The notes under the pieces were generated by a model. That model was given only the letters and a program-made list of their open reading frames with translations. It was not told where the DNA came from and did no database searches. DNA of 38,270 bases from Lachnospiraceae bacterium (GTDB lineage Bacteria; Bacillota; Clostridia; Lachnospirales; Lachnospiraceae). Made by a program: the position numbers and the translations under genes. Shown here one piece after another: positions 1 to 23,180 of the stretch (position 1 is its first letter; each line of letters opens with the position of its first letter). The DNA lies in the NCBI GenBank assembly GCA_017521605.1, contig JAFXCD010000007.1, positions 1 through 38,270 of the forward strand, given 5' to 3'.

Positions 1-789
1 ACACAGGCGTTGTCGATTCCGGACATGGTTACTTCTTTTTCTTCCGGTACGATATAGCCTTCTGCATCGGTTACTTCCACAGTATACTTTCCGTTTGGCA
101 ACTGTTCAAATACTACTGCTTCGCCATCTGCTCCGGTTGTATTGCTGGCTACTTCATCACCATCTTCATTCTTTAATACTACTGTCGCATTGGATATCAG
201 CTCTTTTGTCTCTTCATCCTTTACAGTTACAGTCAGGTCTGGTAACTGTTTCAGCTCCACTACACAGGCGTTATTCGTTCCGGACATGGTTACGTCTGTT
301 TTTTCCGGTACAATATAGCCCTCTGCTGTTGTCACTACCACAGTATACTTTCCGTTTGCCAACTGTTCAAATACTACTGATTCTCCGTTTGTTCCGGTTG
401 TCTTGCTGTCTACTACTTCATCTGCTTCGTTCTTTAATACTACTGTTGCATTGGATATCAGCTCTTTTGTTTCTTCATCCTTTACGGTTACGGTTAAATC
501 CGCTGTCGGAGATACTACCTGCTGCTGATTCAGCTCAACAACACACTCTTTGTTTTCTCCGGACATGGTTACTTCTTTTTCTTCCGGTACGATATAGCCT
601 TCTGCATCGGTTACTTCCACAGTATACTTTCCGTTTGGCAACTGTTCAAATACTACTGCTTCGCCATCTGCTCCGGTAGTATTGCTGGCTACTTCATCAC
701 CATCTTCATTCTTTAATACTACTGTTGCATTGGATATCAGCTCTTTTGTTTCTTCATCCTTTACGGTTACGGTTAAGTCTGGTAACTGC
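1..789 (-). repeat. Three tandem Cna-B coding repeats of about 261-279 bp
   Basis: The marker ggacatggtt recurs at 21, 282 and 561, giving unit spacings of 261 and 279 bp; the longer one carries a Gln-rich linker insert. The outer two copies, about 1-246 and 541-786, differ at only about seven positions by eye, while the middle copy is more diverged. The array probably continues beyond the left edge. Long open frames on the opposite strand here are by-products of the repeats. Confidence 0.9.
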
Positions 790-2549
790 TCCAAATAGAT
801 GACACCTTCACCTATTTCACCACCAGGTACTTCAATATCCACTTTTCCATCAAGTGTTATCTCTGTATGTCCATAATTATTTTCCGGTATTCTATAACCA
901 GTAGTAGACAACTCCACAGCAGTTGCTTCATACCAACCATGCTCAACATCCACTTTTTCGACTATACCATCTCTATTGGTTGGCTGACTCAATATAACAT
1001 CAGTACTTCCACTTTTGTTGATATTTACTGTGATTCCTTCAATCTCATCCCCAGTCTCAATATCCTTTACTGTTACCTTCACAGTGGTAATCTTCTTTTC
1101 GTTCGTAAACACAGGCATATCAGCACTATAGCCTGCATCAGAACCCACCAATTTATAGGTTACATTTCCGTTTCCATCTATCTTACATTCATAAACATCA
1201 GTTGTTATCAAAAAGCCTTGTGCCGGAGCAATTTCCTTTAAATAATATGTACTGTTTTTAGACAAAAGGCTACCACTTATAGCCCCCTCATATATTCCTT
1301 GCGAATCAGGATTATCTGATAGCTTTGGAAGTTCAATGGGGGCTCCACTACAATCTGCGCTGGTATATAACGCAAACTCTGCTGGTTTATTACCTGGTTG
1401 ATTTTGTATATCTTTTGTAATAGGGTGAACATACTTTTTGCCAAACCGAATACTCTGTACCACTTCTGAGCCGGAGCCATTTAATGCATTAAAAGGGAAG
1501 AAATGTGGTTCTACTGCATTTGTTCCCTCTATTCTACTTTCTTTTGCAATAACTCCACCTTCCAAATGCCCTACGATATTATATACAGTAGCACTTGGTG
1601 CAACAATGTGTCCGAAAAATTCCTCTGTTTTTACAGAATTATCTGCATCCGGAAAGTTGAAAATCAACTTCATGCCTTCCAAATTACATTGATTTCCATA
1701 TTTTGTTGTGGCATCATAAAACATCCCTGATTCTGCATTATTATATTGCTCAGAAATATTACCACCCAAAAGTTCTACACTATTACCATTTGCGTCCTTA
1801 AACTGAAACTTCACAATAATCCCATTATCTGATCCTGACGTGAAATTTCTGCCTCCCAGGTAAAAATTCGTTTCACTCTCTTGGGTATCGCCATAAAAGC
1901 TAACCACTTGTTTCTTGGTTTTCAAATCATCCCAACTGTTTAATCTTATGATTAATTCGTCTGCTGCCAAATAATTGGCCAAGCTAATCTTCTTATAGGA
2001 AGACCCCTGTGTAAAATCACATATAATCCTAGATGTACTTACTCCATCTACCACTTCTAAGCTCAAATCATCAGCATTATTTAACATAGCCTTTGACTCA
2101 TTTATAATAGAATTATTAAATGCACCTTCTATATCCATAAATAAGGCATTCTTTGTAAACCCATTGAAATTTGCATGGTCATCATCATTAAATTCACTAT
2201 CGTTTGCCAATTCGCCATAGTAAAAATCATGTGTGGTAGCTCCATAGGTTGAGACTCCTGTAACCTGTGCACGTTTTAATCTCTTTGCGTAAGAAGGTGT
2301 ATATGAAGCATCTCCCAATAATCCTCCATCTATCGCTCCACCTACTGCAACCGGTCCCACACAGTGATTTCCCAGCTCGCAATCTCCTCTGGTAAAATAC
2401 TGATAATATGTAAGGATATCTTCTATTCCATATCCTCCATTATATACAGCTGTGCTACTCGCTGCCTCCACCTTCTGTGGCACTTGTACACTAAAGGTCA
2501 TCACCAAAGCCAATACAAATGCAATTATCCGTTTCATTCCCTTTTTCAT
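1..2549 (-). CDS. Secreted choice-of-anchor-A surface protein with Cna-B/SpaA repeats (3' part missing)
   Basis: The frame is open from the ATG at 2549 to the left edge, so about 849 residues are visible and the C-terminus, with any sorting signal, is lost. The start has a GGAGG site 7 nt upstream and is followed by a signal peptide (MKKGMKRIIAFVLALV, with cleavage near VEA-ASS). Residues of about 35-420 resemble the choice-of-anchor-A domain of secreted Gram-positive proteins (conserved VAVGGAIDGG and FNFP-like patches). A SpaA-type Cna-B domain follows (FALYTSADCSG to YYLKEIAPAQGF), then a second beta-sandwich domain. At least three near-identical 87-93 residue Cna-B repeats complete the visible part (DLTVTVKDEETKELISNATV). 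The likely role is a cell-surface adhesin or stalk; this is inference from domains. A sigma-28-like promoter lies about 160 nt upstream. Confidence 0.85.
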   Translation of the reverse strand, partial: MKKGMKRIIAFVLALVMTFSVQVPQKVEAASSTAVYNGGYGIEDILTYYQYFTRGDCELGNHCVGPVAVGGAIDGGLLGDASYTPSYAKRLKRAQVTGVSTYGATTHDFYYGELANDSEFNDDDHANFNGFTKNALFMDIEGAFNNSIINESKAMLNNADDLSLEVVDGVSTSRIICDFTQGSSYKKISLANYLAADELIIRLNSWDDLKTKKQVVSFYGDTQESETNFYLGGRNFTSGSDNGIIVKFQFKDANGNSVELLGGNISEQYNNAESGMFYDATTKYGNQCNLEGMKLIFNFPDADNSVKTEEFFGHIVAPSATVYNIVGHLEGGVIAKESRIEGTNAVEPHFFPFNALNGSGSEVVQSIRFGKKYVHPITKDIQNQPGNKPAEFALYTSADCSGAPIELPKLSDNPDSQGIYEGAISGSLLSKNSTYYLKEIAPAQGFLITTDVYECKIDGNGNVTYKLVGSDAGYSADMPVFTNEKKITTVKVTVKDIETGDEIEGITVNINKSGSTDVILSQPTNRDGIVEKVDVEHGWYEATAVELSTTGYRIPENNYGHTEITLDGKVDIEVPGGEIGEGVIYLEQLPDLTVTVKDEETKELISNATVVLKNEDGDEVASNTTGADGEAVVFEQLPNGKYTVEVTDAEGYIVPEEKEVTMSGENKECVVELNQQQVVSPTADLTVTVKDEETKELISNATVVLKNEADEVVDSKTTGTNGESVVFEQLANGKYTVVVTTAEGYIVPEKTDVTMSGTNNACVVELKQLPDLTVTVKDEETKELISNATVVLKNEDGDEVASNTTGADGEAVVFEQLPNGKYTVEVTDAEGYIVPEEKEVTMSGIDNAC

Positions 2550-2603
2550 AAATTTTCCTCCGTGCTTTATCACATACTCAACAGTGAATCTGCAATAAGA
2601 AGC

Positions 2604-2700: not shown

Positions 2701-2728
2701 ATATCGTCATGTCCTATATAGAACTTTA
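2701..2728 (-). promoter_or_regulatory. Sigma-28 (SigD/FliA)-like promoter of the surface-protein gene
   Basis: On the minus strand TAAA (2728-2725) is followed by 16 nt and then GACGATAT (2708-2701). The known family consensus is TAAA, about 15 nt, GCCGATAT/A; this site has one mismatch in the -10 and one extra spacer base. The -35 extends to TAAAGTT, as in enteric sigma-28 sites. The predicted leader is about 145 nt. A very similar site precedes the second surface-protein gene. Confidence 0.5.
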
Positions 2729-2780
2729 GTACTAATTTGGTAAAATATTATCCTTTTTCAGCACAATTCTATCTTATCCA

Positions 2781-2826
2781 TTAAAAACAAACTACCTCAA
2801 GAGGGCGTTTGCTCCCTCTTGAGGTA
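2781..2826 (-). terminator. Intrinsic terminator downstream of purL
   Basis: Perfect 13-bp stem (2793-2805 with 2814-2826), 8-nt loop, followed on the minus strand by TTGTTTTTAA. It begins 9 bp after the purL stop codon. Confidence 0.9.
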
Positions 2827-2834
2827 ATAATCAC

Positions 2835-16161: not shown

Positions 16162-19100
16162 TTATTTCTTATCTGAATTTTTAATGTTTCTCCGTTTGTT
16201 CCAGACAAATCCAACACCACTACTTAGCATTAGTGCCAGACACCAATAAATTGAATCATCCTCTCCTGTAACAGGCGACTTTCTCACACCACCAGTATTT
16301 GCCTCAGAAATTGCAGGCGGTGGACTCATCGACTCTATGGGAGCCGGTGTTAATACCGGTGTTAGATTTGGAATTTGTGTTGGAGTCGGTGATTCTGCAG
16401 GCACTTCCGCAGGTGCCTCTGTGGGTGCTTCTGTAGGCACTTCTGTAGGCACTTCTGTAGGTGCTTCTGTAGGCACTTCTGTAGGTGCTTCTGTAGGTGC
16501 TTCTGTAGGTGCTTCTGTAGGCACTTCTGTAGGTGCAGGAGTAAAAGTTTGTGTTGGTTCTTCAGGACTTACTTCTTCCTTAATGTTGTTAAAAACTATT
16601 TTCTCCTGTTCCTTACCTGCACTGGTTATTTTGTTCTTCACCAACAGCTTACCCGTTCCGTTATCTGAAACACTCACCTCTACTACATATTTATTTTCAT
16701 CCATTATATATACGGAATCCTCTTTCATCACTTCCGAAATAGTGTAACTGAATGTATGCCCCACATCTTGCATAGAATATTTAATTGGTGCAAATCGAAT
16801 ATCACCTTTGTCATTTTCTACCGTCTGAAGTACTTTTCCTGCTTCATCAGTCAAAATGAACTCAAAGCTTTCTCCTTCCTCCGGCATCTTACCATTCACT
16901 TGTTTTTCTGCCACAAGGCTTATTTGTCCTTCAGCATCATATTGATTGGTAAAAACAATATCCGGTACTTCTTTTGCATTTCCGATTTCTGACATTTTTC
17001 CCACCTTAACAGTTGCTGACAACTTACCATCATCAGTTTCTTTAACAACCACATTCACCAGATATTTTGAACTATCATATATAATTCCTGCCTGTGTTCC
17101 TTTTTCCTCAGTAATTTCATATTTATATGAACCCACTTTATTAAAGGTTATTCCCGGGAAAGCAAACGCAGCCTTACCCGCACTCCAATTTCTTGTAGTT
17201 GTGGTCAAAGAATCCGGCAGAGGCGCATTCGGTGTATCTACAGCTGCACTTATTGCAAAAGTAAATTTGTCTGAATTTGTTGTCGCTCTCCCCTCCAATT
17301 CCTTAATACCCTTTATTGTCACTGTCGTAGGAATTATCTTTTTATTTGTGATTGTTATGGTATAACCTTCTTCATCAACACTAAACAGCTGATAGTTATT
17401 ACTCTGTGCTACCTGCACCTTTCCATCCTGAGTAATATCAAATTTCCACAAATATTCATCTCTCAATTCATATCCCTGTGGTGCCTTAGTCTCTTCTAAT
17501 GTATAACTTCCCGGAACAAGGCTCGTAAACTGTATGGTTCCTTTTTTATTAACATCCGGTACAATCACTCTATTGTTTGCATCTGTCAGCTTAAACTCTG
17601 CTCCTTCCAGAATCTGACCGGCAATATCACACTTTTGTACTGAAATAACTGCCGGATTATTCTGTACTTCTTCATCCACAAAGCTTCCTGCAGGTATCAC
17701 CGTAATACCGCAATCCAAAACTTCCTGTAATTCTTCACTTAAGTTCTGACCTTGACTTGCATTGGTAGTTAAAACATAACACCATTTCCAAGGTGTTTCA
17801 CCCAGCATATATCCCTTTGGTGCTTTTGTCTCTTCCAGCATATAAACTTTGGTATCAGACAACTTACATACCACTTGAATCATACCATTTGCATCTGTAG
17901 TCAGCACTTCTTCTGTTCCTGCTTTTGCTGTACCATCCAAATTTAATTCTACTTTCTTAAACTCTGCTCCCGAAAGCACCGTGGGTGTTGTCGCTTCCAC
18001 CGCGCTACCATCTATTTTCACCAAACGTATACCGGCTTCATCATTTTGAACGGAAAAGCTACCCATTTGATAAGTAGATTTTACAGTAAAAGTAACATTA
18101 GTGGGGGGGGCTGTACGTCCGGCCAGCGTTGCAGTATTATCAAGTTGGACTTCTGCCCCAACGGGCTTGGTTGTCTTTACCTGATAAACAAACTCAATAT
18201 AGGTTTCATCCGGTATGGTCATTGTAAAACTTTTTCCATCCTCGGCCATTTCCAGCACATACGTGTTTTCTCCGGGTTCAGTTCCCTTCGCCATCTGCAC
18301 TCCGGTTAATTTATTAGTCACCCGGAATGTGTTTTCCAGATAAATAAAATTCTCTTTTCCCGTTCCCATATAATCATACAAAGTAATTGTATCTTCATCA
18401 CTTTGATTAAGGCTGTAGGGATTAATATCTATGGTATATTTTACCTTACTTCCACTAGATTCCAACCACTCTGAGGTTTTACTTAATACCACATCATTTA
18501 TCACAATATCGCCTTCCTCATAAGGCTCTTCCAGCAATAAACCATTCCAATATACCTCTGCAACATTTTTAACATTCTCAAAGGTAAGGCTCACTTCCCT
18601 ATCCGGCATCTTATCCAATGCTTCCTGAAGCACCCCTTCTTTAAATACTGTATAATAATCAATGTAGATATTATATTCCTTACTGGGCCAGTTCTTACCC
18701 GGCTTTGTAAACTCCAATGTGAATTGGTTTTTATCTTCATCCCAACTAAATATAGCATCTGTCAAATCAATCTTTTTATGAGCTTGGGTTGACTCTATAC
18801 TAAAGCAATCTCTCCAGTTTTCACCATCCTCCATTAGCTTCATATTTTCCGGCAAGGTATCTTCCACCTTTAATCGCACGTCATTCCCAACATCAAATTC
18901 AGCCGCACCTATTTCAATACGCCATTTTACTTCTTTTTTATTATCATTATTTACAAAATCAGCAAAATTTTCACCCGAAAGCTCTTCCAACGTTTTTAAT
19001 ACTGTAGAAAACGCTCTGCCGGACTCAACTTTTGCTTCCAAAGGGGTTAACGGATTACCCGATACTGCATAATCCAGAGAAGCCGTATTTTCAATATTTG

Positions 19101-21657
19101 CAACAGGATACCTACCATTATTCGGATTATTATAATCAGTATTATAGAGATAACTTAATACTTCAATCTTTTTAAAATAGGTTTCTCCTTCACTTAAGAG
19201 ATTTTTGATAGCTGACATATTAAAGTTGATAACAAATTTTGCCTTATTGTCTGCCGCGTTAAGCAAAGTATAATGCTCACCCTCAACCAACTGAACTTTT
19301 ATATCATTTTCCCTCACCAATGTAAGGTTTGGAGCATACTTCTTATCTGTTTCAAAATCATACCAGACATCCATGTCATCGGAAATATTCGTTTTACTTT
19401 TTAACCTTGCAACATCTGTCAACACCAAGCCGGATAAACTGTCTACCGGAATTCGATTGGGATTATCAATTTCTATTTTCCATTCGCTAATTATGTCATG
19501 TATATCATACTTCTTCGAATCTCTCGTAGATACCTTCGATAATTTCAATTGTACAGTATCACCAAACTGAGGAATCTCTGTTCCGTTTTGTGGTCCGATA
19601 TCTGTTACATTTGGACTGGGAACAGTAGGAAATTCAATACTCCAATTATTCTCCATCACACTGAAATCTATAGTATCTTCCGGCACCAAAGTATAATAGG
19701 TCAATTTAAACTTCCGAGCACTGGCAGAAGGATCTGCCGTCAATTTACCCGGATAAAGAATAAACATTTCATTGCCATTTTCATCGGTACCAAAATCAAT
19801 ATAATCTAAATCATTTTTGTTCCATAACTTTACAATACTTTCAGGCGAACCGGATGAAATATCCCAAATATCAAAGGATGTTGCCCCATTAATCAGCAAG
19901 CTTTGTCCACCCTTCATTACATCTTTAACAACCATACTGGGATCCGGAACACTCCAACCAAACTCCACATCCCATCGAATTAGCTTTCCTCTGACTCCTT
20001 CCTTATCATAGATAACATGTTCACCTGTATTACTTGTTTCAATGGCACCTCTCTTAATAAAAGGATAAGGTGGTTTTAACTTATCTTTTACTGTTGATTC
20101 TTTTCCATTCACAATATTAGTGTCATCTACGGATACTAATTTGGCAGAATTTATATATTCTATCTCACTATTTCCCTTTGCGACCTCATCCACTGCCTTG
20201 GTCGCTTTACAAGGAACTTTTAAATAATATGTACCGGGAGGCAAAGTCAAAAGACTATTGGTACTAACAATAATGCTTTGCGTATTTTCCGATATGCTTG
20301 TAACAACATCTGCTGCAACCGGTTGTAAATTATCTGCTATTCCCTCTTGGCTCCAGAAATCTTCAGCCGTATTTACTCCCAATAATACAACCGGTTTGTC
20401 AGAATGTTCTAGAGGAGCCGTCACCACATCATTTACTGTGAAAGTAGTTACTTCATCCTTCAAATAAACTGCCACACAATAATCCACATAATAATCTGCA
20501 CCTTCTATGTATAAATTGGTTTGTTTATTTACAGGAATAATACTTTTAATAATTTTACTTCTCTCAGAAATATTATCATCCCATTTAAGAGTAGCTGTAG
20601 CAGTTAATGGTGTTGTTAATGAAGCATTATTCTCTAAAAGCTCCACTACATTATCATTATTATATCCGTTCAGCTTAGCAGCTGCTGCTTCATTCTTTAT
20701 GGACATAGTGTATGTAAGAGTATAGGAGCCTTTCTTCAATACATCAGCACCATTAAAGGAAAAAATATTTTCTGTACCATTATTCAATACAGTCACACTT
20801 AACCCATCAGTCGGTCCGGTTACTTCAGGATTATCAACCAACTGCCCTGTAAGCGAACTTCCGGCACCGCCACTTAATACATCCTTTAATTTCAAATCAG
20901 CCGAGTAACCATCATATGAAACGTTTCCACCAATTCCCATATCCTGGTCCAATGTAAAAGTCACCGAATAATCTGCTACATAGGTACCATCTCTATACAC
21001 CGGTGCACCTACTGTTTTCGTTAATTCATAACGGGTCTTAATGGGGATAATATAATTCTGACCACCCACATTAATGGTAATCTTACCGGGATTATCATTA
21101 TCACCAATATTCACCTCTCCTGTAAATCCCATTGCTATTTTGTTTAACTGAAGATTATCATTATTCTTAACTTTATTAATCCATTCTTCCTCAAAACGAA
21201 TTCTCACCTTATGATTTTCATCTATCCACCATCTATAAAAGGGGGCACCGGATTCATCCTCTGCCAGATTATCAAAATCCGAAGGATATAAGGATGTAGG
21301 ATAACTTCCCTTTAGCATACTGACAAACTGAGCATCCACCGTAAAATCAATCAATTTATTAGCCGCCTTTAACTTTTCTAACAGCTGTGTGTTATCAAAC
21401 TCTGTCATTTCCAACAAAAAAATCAAAGACTGACCATCTTCCAGCACAGTAATCTGCTGCCCATTTTCTGCATCTTCATTACTTGCATATAAACTAATGT
21501 TCACCTTTGCATAGTCAGACATTTCTACCGACTCTACTTCCTGTTCTCCCTCTGCTTGCACGTTCAAAGGTTCAATAACCATAAACATCATAATCAGACA
21601 AAGCAGCCATGCCATTCCCTTTTTCATTAATTTTCCCACTTCATTACACACTTTCAT
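16162..21657 (-). CDS. Large wall-anchored pilin/adhesin-like protein with SPVTG sorting signal
   Basis: 1831 residues. The start at 21657 has AAAGGAG 8 nt upstream; a later ATG (MKKGMAWLL) fits the signal peptide better but has a poor site. After the signal peptide (LLCLIMMFMVIEPLNVQA) comes a long region of beta-sandwich repeats. Next are two SpaA-type Cna-B domains (each with the E-box YMLEETKAPKGY or YTLEETKAPQGY), then two FctA/Spy0128-like pilin isopeptide domains (YKYEITEEKG; FSYTISEVM). A PTEAPTEV repeat spacer follows at about 1725-1775. The C-terminus is SPVTG at 1794-1798, a hydrophobic segment and NKRRN. SPVTG fits the (S/P)PxTG motif described for Clostridioides sortase B rather than LPxTG. 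No sortase is in the window. Role: surface display and probably adhesion, with self-made isopeptide cross-links (inference). Confidence 0.93.
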   Translation of the reverse strand: MKVCNEVGKLMKKGMAWLLCLIMMFMVIEPLNVQAEGEQEVESVEMSDYAKVNISLYASNEDAENGQQITVLEDGQSLIFLLEMTEFDNTQLLEKLKAANKLIDFTVDAQFVSMLKGSYPTSLYPSDFDNLAEDESGAPFYRWWIDENHKVRIRFEEEWINKVKNNDNLQLNKIAMGFTGEVNIGDNDNPGKITINVGGQNYIIPIKTRYELTKTVGAPVYRDGTYVADYSVTFTLDQDMGIGGNVSYDGYSADLKLKDVLSGGAGSSLTGQLVDNPEVTGPTDGLSVTVLNNGTENIFSFNGADVLKKGSYTLTYTMSIKNEAAAAKLNGYNNDNVVELLENNASLTTPLTATATLKWDDNISERSKIIKSIIPVNKQTNLYIEGADYYVDYCVAVYLKDEVTTFTVNDVVTAPLEHSDKPVVLLGVNTAEDFWSQEGIADNLQPVAADVVTSISENTQSIIVSTNSLLTLPPGTYYLKVPCKATKAVDEVAKGNSEIEYINSAKLVSVDDTNIVNGKESTVKDKLKPPYPFIKRGAIETSNTGEHVIYDKEGVRGKLIRWDVEFGWSVPDPSMVVKDVMKGGQSLLINGATSFDIWDISSGSPESIVKLWNKNDLDYIDFGTDENGNEMFILYPGKLTADPSASARKFKLTYYTLVPEDTIDFSVMENNWSIEFPTVPSPNVTDIGPQNGTEIPQFGDTVQLKLSKVSTRDSKKYDIHDIISEWKIEIDNPNRIPVDSLSGLVLTDVARLKSKTNISDDMDVWYDFETDKKYAPNLTLVRENDIKVQLVEGEHYTLLNAADNKAKFVINFNMSAIKNLLSEGETYFKKIEVLSYLYNTDYNNPNNGRYPVANIENTASLDYAVSGNPLTPLEAKVESGRAFSTVLKTLEELSGENFADFVNNDNKKEVKWRIEIGAAEFDVGNDVRLKVEDTLPENMKLMEDGENWRDCFSIESTQAHKKIDLTDAIFSWDEDKNQFTLEFTKPGKNWPSKEYNIYIDYYTVFKEGVLQEALDKMPDREVSLTFENVKNVAEVYWNGLLLEEPYEEGDIVINDVVLSKTSEWLESSGSKVKYTIDINPYSLNQSDEDTITLYDYMGTGKENFIYLENTFRVTNKLTGVQMAKGTEPGENTYVLEMAEDGKSFTMTIPDETYIEFVYQVKTTKPVGAEVQLDNTATLAGRTAPPTNVTFTVKSTYQMGSFSVQNDEAGIRLVKIDGSAVEATTPTVLSGAEFKKVELNLDGTAKAGTEEVLTTDANGMIQVVCKLSDTKVYMLEETKAPKGYMLGETPWKWCYVLTTNASQGQNLSEELQEVLDCGITVIPAGSFVDEEVQNNPAVISVQKCDIAGQILEGAEFKLTDANNRVIVPDVNKKGTIQFTSLVPGSYTLEETKAPQGYELRDEYLWKFDITQDGKVQVAQSNNYQLFSVDEEGYTITITNKKIIPTTVTIKGIKELEGRATTNSDKFTFAISAAVDTPNAPLPDSLTTTTRNWSAGKAAFAFPGITFNKVGSYKYEITEEKGTQAGIIYDSSKYLVNVVVKETDDGKLSATVKVGKMSEIGNAKEVPDIVFTNQYDAEGQISLVAEKQVNGKMPEEGESFEFILTDEAGKVLQTVENDKGDIRFAPIKYSMQDVGHTFSYTISEVMKEDSVYIMDENKYVVEVSVSDNGTGKLLVKNKITSAGKEQEKIVFNNIKEEVSPEEPTQTFTPAPTEVPTEAPTEAPTEAPTEVPTEAPTEVPTEVPTEAPTEAPAEVPAESPTPTQIPNLTPVLTPAPIESMSPPPAISEANTGGVRKSPVTGEDDSIYWCLALMLSSGVGFVWNKRRNIKNSDKK
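16397..16540 (-). repeat. 12-bp tandem repeats encoding the (PTEA/V) wall-spanning spacer
   Basis: About twelve units of ggtgcttctgta or ggcacttctgta in tandem, coding for PTEAP/PTEVP. The repeats are nearly exact, so copy number is likely to vary between strains. They also create a long false reading frame on the plus strand. Confidence 0.9.
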
Positions 21658-21710
21658 TTGTAAACTCCTTTAGAAATTTTACATTCGTGACATAGTACTA
21701 ATTTACCAAC

Positions 21711-21754
21711 TAAAAAAATGCCACAAATATTTTTATCGGCAACAATGTGACATT
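21711..21754 (-). terminator. Terminator of the gntR-clpC-radA operon
   Basis: 9-bp stem with one G-T pair (21717-21725 with 21746-21754), 20-nt loop, and on the minus strand TTTTT directly after. It begins 53 bp after the radA stop. Its loop and stem contain the sigma-28-like promoter of the next gene. Confidence 0.65.
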
Positions 21755-21760
21755 TCTTTA
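21733..21760 (-). promoter_or_regulatory. Sigma-28 (SigD/FliA)-like promoter of the large surface-protein gene
   Basis: On the minus strand TAAA (21760-21757), 16 nt, GCCGATAA (21740-21733). The -10 is identical to the enteric sigma-28 consensus and one base from the Bacillus SigD one. Transcription would begin near 21725, giving a leader of about 68 nt. I find no convincing sigma-A promoter in this gap. Confidence 0.6.
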
Positions 21761-21806: not shown

Positions 21807-23180
21807 TCAAAACAAATATTCAATCGCTTCCTGTATATTGCTTACACCGATAACCTTCATCTTACCGCCGGTCTTGATACTCTTCATGCAGACCTTGGGT
21901 ACTACACAGATTTCAAAGCCAAGTTTCTCTGCTTCTGCCACTCGCTGTGCTGCCATGTTAACGGAGCGGACTTCTCCACTTAATCCTACTTCTCCAAAGG
22001 CCATAAGTTTAGGACTAAGGGCCATATTCTTAAAGCTGGATACAATAGCCAGTACAATGCCCAAATCAATGGCCGGCTCCACAATCTTCATACCGCCGGT
22101 TAGATTTACATAGGCATCGCAACCTGCCAACTGGATTCCACAACGCTTTTCCAGTACTGCCATCAATAAATTCACACGGTTAAAATCCGTGCCCGTAGTT
22201 TGCCTGCGCGGAATACCGAAATTAGTCTGGCACACAAGAGCCTGAATTTCCAAAAGCAAGGGACGGGTTCCCTCCAGGGAACATGCCACCACCGAACCAC
22301 TGGCATTCATGGGACGACCCTCCAGCATATATTCTGAAGGATTCTGTACTTCTGCCAGCCCTTCTTCCCGCATTTCAAACACACCGATTTCATTGGTAGA
22401 ACCAAATCGATTTTTCACCCCACGTAATATGCGGTAGGATGCATGTCTGTCTCCTTCAAAATAAAGTACGGTATCCACCATATGTTCCAATACTCGTGGG
22501 CCTGCCACTGTACCCTCCTTGGTTACATGACCTACAATAAAAACTGCTACATTTAAGCCCTTTGCCAGCTGTAATAAGGTACCTGTAGATTCCCTAACCT
22601 GTGACACACTGCCCGGTGCTGCTGATACATTTTCATTATACATGGTCTGGATAGAGTCAATAACTACCACCCTTGGATTTTCTTTTCGTATCACCTCAGC
22701 AATCTCGTCCAGATTAGTTTCACAGAGCAGTAGCATCTGCTTCTGAAACTGTCCGATACGTTCCGCACGCATCTTTATCTGCACTTGGGATTCTTCTCCT
22801 GAAATATAGAGTACCTTATGTCCGCTTTCCGCCAATAAACGACAGGTTTGTAAAAGTAATGTGGATTTACCGATACCGGGGTCACCACCCACCAATGTAA
22901 GGGAACCCTGTACAATACCGCCGCCTAAAACCCTGTCTAATTCAGAAATACCTGTGCGGATTTTATCCTCTTCCTGTATGGTTACTTCTACCAACGCTAT
23001 AGGAACACTTTTCCCCTGTCCTTTTACTCCTTTTGAGGAATTTTTTAAGGAAGTCGCACGAACGACTTCCTCCACAAAGGTATTCCACTCTTTACAACCG
23101 GGACACTGTCCCATCCATTTTGAAGATTCAAATCCACAATTTTGACAATAAAATACTGTTGCATTCTTACTTTTTGCCAT
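21807..23180 (-). CDS. radA: DNA repair protein RadA (Sms)
   Basis: 457 residues, the standard length. It drives branch migration and processing of recombination intermediates. It has an N-terminal C4 zinc finger (FYCQNCGFESSKWMGQCPGC), a RecA-like ATPase with Walker A GGDPGIGKSTLL near residue 96, the RadA signature KNRFGSTNEIGVFEM, and the C-terminal Lon-protease-like domain (DAYVNLTGGMKIVEPAIDLG). AGGAG lies 8 nt before the ATG. It is the last gene of the operon gntR-clpC-136 aa-radA, 17 bp after its upstream neighbour. A clpC-radA linkage is common in Firmicutes. Confidence 0.98.
   Translation of the reverse strand: MAKSKNATVFYCQNCGFESSKWMGQCPGCKEWNTFVEEVVRATSLKNSSKGVKGQGKSVPIALVEVTIQEEDKIRTGISELDRVLGGGIVQGSLTLVGGDPGIGKSTLLLQTCRLLAESGHKVLYISGEESQVQIKMRAERIGQFQKQMLLLCETNLDEIAEVIRKENPRVVVIDSIQTMYNENVSAAPGSVSQVRESTGTLLQLAKGLNVAVFIVGHVTKEGTVAGPRVLEHMVDTVLYFEGDRHASYRILRGVKNRFGSTNEIGVFEMREEGLAEVQNPSEYMLEGRPMNASGSVVACSLEGTRPLLLEIQALVCQTNFGIPRRQTTGTDFNRVNLLMAVLEKRCGIQLAGCDAYVNLTGGMKIVEPAIDLGIVLAIVSSFKNMALSPKLMAFGEVGLSGEVRSVNMAAQRVAEAEKLGFEICVVPKVCMKSIKTGGKMKVIGVSNIQEAIEYLF

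Follow-up and report, generated by a model that had tools for sequence, protein, structure and literature searches.

A probable SigD-type promoter overlapping a putative radA terminator upstream of a SpaA/FctA adhesin gene in a Lachnospiraceae bacterium

Promoters read by SigD (FliA/sigma-28) have been described for the Lachnospiraceae genera Butyrivibrio, Roseburia and Eubacterium, with the consensus TAAA-N16-17-MCGATAa in Butyrivibrio fibrisolvens (PMC3720852). The site considered here, on the minus strand of a Lachnospiraceae contig, resembles them in sequence, likewise lies within the range of tens to hundreds of bases before its gene, and belongs to a genome that also encodes the sigma factor and FlgM. 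It differs from the flagellar promoters of that report in preceding an adhesin rather than a flagellin gene and in overlapping a terminator. In Clostridioides difficile, a sigD mutant showed lower expression of cbpA, encoding a surface-exposed adhesin, so that the SigD regulon likewise extends beyond flagella; cbpA is, however, absent from part of the promoter lines in Table 3 of that study (PMC3865298), whereas the promoter-like site described here immediately precedes a SpaA/FctA adhesin gene. Mapping of transcription start sites placed the SigD promoters of C. difficile mainly at flagellar genes (PMC7438776). The sortase substrates of C. difficile that are controlled by c-di-GMP are likewise large and tied to the choice between motile and sessile states, c-di-GMP, the signal of the sessile state, raising their expression (PMC4591827, PMC6447587). 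The logic at the present locus would be the opposite, as the adhesin would accompany motility, and no riboswitch was matched in the window. Among the papers listed from an open-access library, no title or abstract opening dealt with a SpaA adhesin under a SigD promoter or with such an overlap of promoter and terminator.

The window, i.e. the whole stretch of 38,270 nt that was analysed, is one complete contig of a 3.8-Mb assembly (125 contigs, 92.9% complete, 6% contamination). Its tetranucleotide profile correlates with those of five other stretches of the assembly at 0.95-0.98, which disfavours bin contamination as its source, although this is weak evidence obtained with no outgroup. The gene before the adhesin, which we take to be radA, encodes a product with 69-80% identity over nearly the full length to RadA of congeners, and groups with uncharacterised Lachnospiraceae, e.g. 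strain GAM79 and MAGs labelled Acetatifactor. A profile search of the assembly identified a FliA-type sigma factor (265 bits against a family cut-off of 189.6); FlgM (PF04316) and FlaG are encoded as well, so that the cognate sigma and anti-sigma factors are both present, and four genes carry a Flagellin_N domain. By eye, the translated adhesin has a signal peptide and a sortase-like SPVTG tail. The sequence GGAAAATTWATGAAAAAGGGAATG occurs near both adhesin starts of the window (2525-2560 and 21610-21640, minus strand), and since it is common to both, an alternative in-frame ATG at 21627 is possible for the 1831-aa gene. The features of the locus are collected in Table 1.

Table 1. Features of the two adhesin loci (positions refer to the window).
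Feature	Position	Strand	Basis or remark
Second SpaA/pAdhesive_15 adhesin gene, cut by contig start	3..2549	-	domain search
Companion SigD-type site, TAAA-N16-GACGATAT, before second SpaA adhesin	2701..2728	-	score 17.24
Second copy of 12-mer AAATTAGTACTA, overlapping the -35 of the 2701 site by two bases	2727..2738	-	sequence search
Terminator following the PurL-type gene, distinct from the 2701 site	2791..2828	-	gene by domains
Adhesin gene, 1831 aa, SpaA (PF17802) and FctA (PF12892)	16162..21657	-	domain search
Predicted adhesin 5' UTR, ~69 nt	21658..21726	-	fold prediction
Shine-Dalgarno sequence AAGGAG	21665..21670	-	sequence read
12-mer AAATTAGTACTA, candidate common operator	21693..21704	-	in predicted adhesin 5' UTR
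Probable intrinsic terminator of radA; arms AAATGTCACA (21755-21746) and TGTGGCATTT (21725-21716), T7 at 21718-21712	21712..21755	-	fold, z -4.3
Predicted transcription start, ~21726	21724..21728	-	sigma-28 geometry
-10 element GCCGATAA	21733..21740	-	sequence read
-35 element TAAA, extended TAAAGAAAT	21757..21760	-	sequence read
Presumed radA, 457 aa, gene before the adhesin	21807..23180	-	domains

The original prediction had placed a sigma-28-class promoter with a perfect -10 element upstream of the adhesin gene, and this was borne out: the minus strand reads TAAA-N16-GCCGATAA from 21760 to 21733, 75 nt ahead of the 1831-residue SpaA/FctA adhesin, and its score is on a par with those of the genome's own flagellar promoters. 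It carries both the TAAA of the -35 and the [G/T]CCGATA[A/T] of the -10 element that characterise SigD/sigma-28 promoters; its spacer of 16 is one above the textbook value of 15. The extended -35, TAAAGAAAT, is identical in a congener flagellin locus (L064) and may be compared with TAAAGAAAA in the genome's own flgM promoter; the corresponding promoter ends of flaG and flgM, for comparison of the -10, are CCGATAAAA and CCGATAAAG. Sigma-28 promoters have a characteristic geometry, from which a transcription start near 21726 would be expected. Within the gap of 149 nt between the radA stop, which ends at 21807, and the adhesin ATG at 21657, no sigma-70-type promoter was found on the same strand, the best loose candidates reaching 7-8/12. 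We consider 21760-21733 probably a genuine SigD promoter driving the adhesin gene, and are less confident of the biology derived from it. The promoter would be of the ordinary SigD type, the unusual features being its place and the gene that it precedes. An invertible promoter was considered as well; the single imperfect 14-nt inverted pair around the -10 was set aside as AT-rich chance.

The promoter had also been proposed to lie inside the loop and stem of the radA terminator. The overlap and the position of the -10 within the apical loop of the predicted fold stand; the -35 immediately precedes the core stem on its 5' side and falls in an A-rich stretch pairing with the U-tract. A stable hairpin followed by a U-tract is present after the radA stop codon, with an AT-rich core stem, and the stretch 21765-21705 is predicted to fold at -17 kcal/mol (z -4.3; 0/200 shuffles equally good). 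A mechanical terminator scan reported none at the radA-adhesin gap, because the loops that it permits (3-8 nt) stop at 8 nt. Since the TAAA is part of the A-tract opposite the U-tract, the match at 21733 is partly aided by the terminator. Such embedding is particular to this site, the 2701 site lying ~60 nt past its upstream terminator; as this second site is placed beyond a separate terminator (2828-2791), embedding appears not to be required and possibly reflects economy of space.

The flagellar promoters predicted in the same genome are those of flgM (TAAAGAAAATG...TCCGATAAAG, spacer 15), flaG (TAAA...TCCGATAAAA, spacer 16) and two flagellin genes (TTAA...TCCGATAT, spacer 15, and TCAA...GCCGATAT, spacer 16), while flagellin leaders of congeners read CTAAAGTAAT...TCCGATATA. 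Across 61 genomes of the genus, our own included, the pattern TAAAGT-N-CCGATAT has 128 matches versus 29 for the reversed pattern. Their spacers, in the notation TAAA-Nx-[N]CCGATAT, are 13 (6 matches), 14 (7), 15 (92), 16 (21) and 17 (2); the first base of the -10 is T in 58/92 sites at spacer 15 and G in 13/21 at spacer 16, and 12 of the 21 spacer-16 sites lie outside ORF calls. The 21733 site, with spacer 16 and a G before CCGATAT, fits this minor class. None of the 128 matches comes from our genome, whose flagellar promoters are more variable. The B. fibrisolvens consensus fits both sites of the window, and the A of GACGATAT in the 2701 site agrees with it too; its N16-17 is counted to MCGATA, and on that count the 21733 site has 17.

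Further SigD-type sites came to light in these searches. One lies upstream of a 196-aa MNVNGITS protein that has no Pfam match (L114, G000:C20:16461), and homologues in two congeners (L273, L282) have TAAAGT sites upstream with spacer 16; judged from these sites, the protein is a likely SigD target. In five congeners (L272, L275, L300, L304, L306) such a site is located 187-285 nt before a gene that we take to be MreB/Mbl-like. Finally, a mechanosensitive channel gene is preceded, at a distance of 46 nt, by TAAA-N16-GCCGATAT (L012, G000:C50:29293) and is a further candidate non-flagellar SigD target.

The matrix used for scoring was derived from 14 flagellin promoters of congeners and contained no promoter of our own genome; the model favours spacer 15. 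Of 30 congener flagellin loci fetched, two were not parsed, 12 had no CCGATA within 300 nt, and L055 (stretch edge) and L063 (-35 not alignable) were also dropped; because the loci were selected on CCGATA, the training set favours this core. Left out one at a time, the training promoters score 14.2-26.2. The 21733 site reaches 18.76, second only to flgM (21.5) in a ranking whose flagellar promoters are themselves predictions, and is followed by one flagellin (18.73), flaG (18.0), a presumably IspD-like gene beside flaG (17.3) and the 2701 site (17.24). The two adhesin leaders are the top two of 23 leaders in the window, the other 21 scoring at most 8.9. Among 98 leaders taken from flagellar regions and adhesin regions, only flgM, one flagellin (one of the four flagellin-domain genes in the genome), flaG and the IspD-like gene exceed 14.

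The most serious rival reading is a chance match: the AT-rich terminator would happen to contain TAAA and GCCGATAA, and the adhesin gene would be read by sigma-A or another factor. In its favour, the bare motif is not enriched in the genome (6 matches versus 19 reversed for TAAA-N14-16-GCCGATA, 46 versus 59 for TAAA-N15-17-CCGATA), and placement was therefore tested against the reversed pattern. Under ORF calls made by longest-ORF heuristics with no gene finder, 39 of the 46 matches fall within ORFs and seven outside; six of these seven are correctly oriented, 46-87 nt upstream of an ORF, namely flgM, flaG, the 196-aa protein, the mechanosensitive-channel gene, a gene on contig C119 and the adhesin. 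Of the 59 reversed matches, 57 are within ORF calls, and neither of the other two is less than 100 nt before an ORF (one is at 171 nt). The difference, 6/46 versus 0/59, gives a one-sided Fisher p of ~0.006 (calculated by hand). By eye, terminator-like hairpins overlap two of the other six non-ORF matches (C54 and C119), and in C119 (L236, G000:C119:33670) the terminator stem GCTATCG/CGATAGC yields a perfect but false SigD-type match. This again speaks for chance, and calls for care in motif scans wherever a site lies within a hairpin; at 21733, on the other hand, the -10 lies in the loop and is unexplained by the stem.

Scores argue against chance. When the 149-nt leader was shuffled 1000 times with its dinucleotides preserved, the score of the 21733 site was never reached; for the 2701 site, 2/1000 shuffled leaders reached the observed score; the matrix used for these shuffles included five own-genome promoters and no adhesin, and the regions were picked partly for flagellar genes. 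All 127 comparison leaders are outranked (best 15.2, in L340; 0/127 reach the 21733 score); they were taken from 61 stretches, of which 58 surround matches to the reversed pattern and three (L143, L144 and L340) had been chosen for other reasons. Moreover, a high-scoring site likewise precedes the one further SpaA gene start that the assembly was found to contain, and the 21733 gap holds no good sigma-A promoter, though the 2701 leader has a 9/12 candidate.

Conservation is the remaining point on the side of chance, the site being absent from the relatives compared. Of 109 radA loci in relatives, drawn from 29 congeners and from 80 named contigs with some genomes counted twice, none has the adhesin gene beside radA (flanks reached 1.5-3 kb at most and were shorter where a contig ended), and TAAA-N14-18-CCGATA occurs in 0/108 of their radA 3' flanks; as radA has other neighbours in the relatives examined, this comparison of orthologous gaps is without power. 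Residues 1-1327 of the adhesin have no counterpart among the matches listed for 60 congeners (at most seven candidates scored per genome), where only C-terminal modules were matched, and no relative was confirmed in named genomes, a set in which records very near our own genome may be left out. Around congener SpaA genes, 52 ORF leaders all score at most 9.8; these ORFs (at least 250 aa) stem from 36 stretches in 18 of the 45 congeners with a match, among the matches listed, and some are not SpaA genes or stand second in operons. Three congeners with a SpaA match (G063, G070 and G076) have no flagellin. Taken with the scores and the placement, we regard a chance match as unlikely.

It had further been suggested, from the two sites together, that pilus-like surface proteins and motility share a sigma factor. 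SpaA domains in our genome are confined to the pair of adhesin genes in the window and to the terminal part of contig C30. As proposed, a companion sigma-28-type site is present at 2701; it fits the B. fibrisolvens consensus and ranks with the genome's own flagellar promoters. It is overlapped by a sigma-70-like candidate, ATGACG-N16-GATAAT (2710-2683, 9/12; one found versus 1.1 in shuffles). The start of the second adhesin, ATG 2549 after GGAGG, was picked by eye, the ORF tool starting at GTG 2573. This contig-start adhesin (3-2573, minus strand) has EETKELISNATVVLKNEDGDEV repeats in common with a 703-residue frame at the C30 end (G000:C30:112302-114413, L340) that ends in a sortase-like SPKTG tail; with the same repeats in both, they are probably one gene split by repeats. 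Elsewhere, three tandem giant adhesins with SPxTG-like tails and no SpaA match occur on contig C88 (L140-L141, G000:C88:34755-49753); no SigD-type site was found before them, none of their leaders reaching 10.3. The idea of a shared sigma factor is thus only partly supported: it probably applies to the two SpaA adhesins and finds no support as a general rule. Any co-regulation of adhesin and motility would be particular to the two SpaA adhesins of the source lineage, because the congener SpaA leaders and the C88 adhesins of the same genome are without a site.

Both SpaA leaders also contain the 12-mer AAATTAGTACTA, a candidate shared operator, which raises the question of an unknown regulator acting there as the main control, with SigD providing only the basal polymerase or being irrelevant. 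The 12-mer has exactly two copies in the 3.8-Mb assembly, both in SpaA adhesin leaders, and only 9/2000 shuffled leader pairs share a 12-mer. Its placement differs, however, since at the 21733 site it lies past the predicted start and at the 2701 site it adjoins the -35; as AAATTAGTACTA was found after the leaders were compared, the test is post hoc; and such a regulator would be compatible with SigD. As main control we consider it improbable, somewhat more so than a chance match.

The predicted adhesin leader is itself structured. The stretch 21726-21655 folds at -16.8 kcal/mol (z -3.46; 0/200 shuffles equally good), the 3' arm of the terminator being able to re-pair with AUGUCACGA, a downstream ATGTCAC copy, and a second predicted hairpin within 21655-21726 of the minus strand covers the Shine-Dalgarno sequence. 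From the folds, the re-pairing arm and this hairpin may have a role in the 5' UTR. At Rfam gathering thresholds the whole window yields one tRNA only, with no riboswitch in either adhesin leader. Attenuation, in which transcription of the adhesin gene would come from the radA operon through a conditional terminator whose 3' arm chooses between the upstream arm (stop) and AUGUCACGA (go), is very improbable: both alternative folds are strong (z -4.3 and z -3.46), but the upstream arm is made first, no known switch is available because Rfam finds only the tRNA, repeats of 7 nt are by our estimate not rare within 150 nt of AT-rich sequence, and the SigD site would be left unexplained.

For the SigD promoter that we prefer, the sequence, its geometry, its rank among the genome's own flagellar promoters and the presence of SigD and FlgM genes are direct observations. 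In the proposed mechanism, SigD RNA polymerase would initiate around 21726, where the loop of the radA terminator borders its stem. Transcripts coming from radA hold both hairpin arms and would end in the U-tract. Those begun by SigD, judging from the geometry, would be without the 5' arm, hence without a terminator, and would escape; the adhesin gene would therefore be insulated from the radA operon. Expression would set in when FlgM releases SigD, together with flagellin, and the second SpaA adhesin (2549) would be served by the sister site at 2728-2701. More broadly, and as a tentative proposal that we hold with less than even confidence, the SpaA adhesins may have been captured into the flagellar regulon through SigD promoters, making swimming cells adhesin-bearing; at the radA locus, promoter and terminator would form one 50-bp element, in which the start removes the 5' arm and the left-over arm becomes a protective 5' hairpin that perhaps gates translation, and the AAATTAGTACTA operator would provide a second, adhesin-specific input.

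The flagellar promoter type is well known, but this lineage seems to have come locally to its use for an adhesin of this kind. If the reading is correct, swimming and holding on would be programmed together in a flagellated gut commensal, and the flagellar regulon of Lachnospiraceae could recruit fast-evolving adhesins. A promoter set defined by sequence is available for this genome, comprising flgM, flaG, flagellin and the two adhesins.
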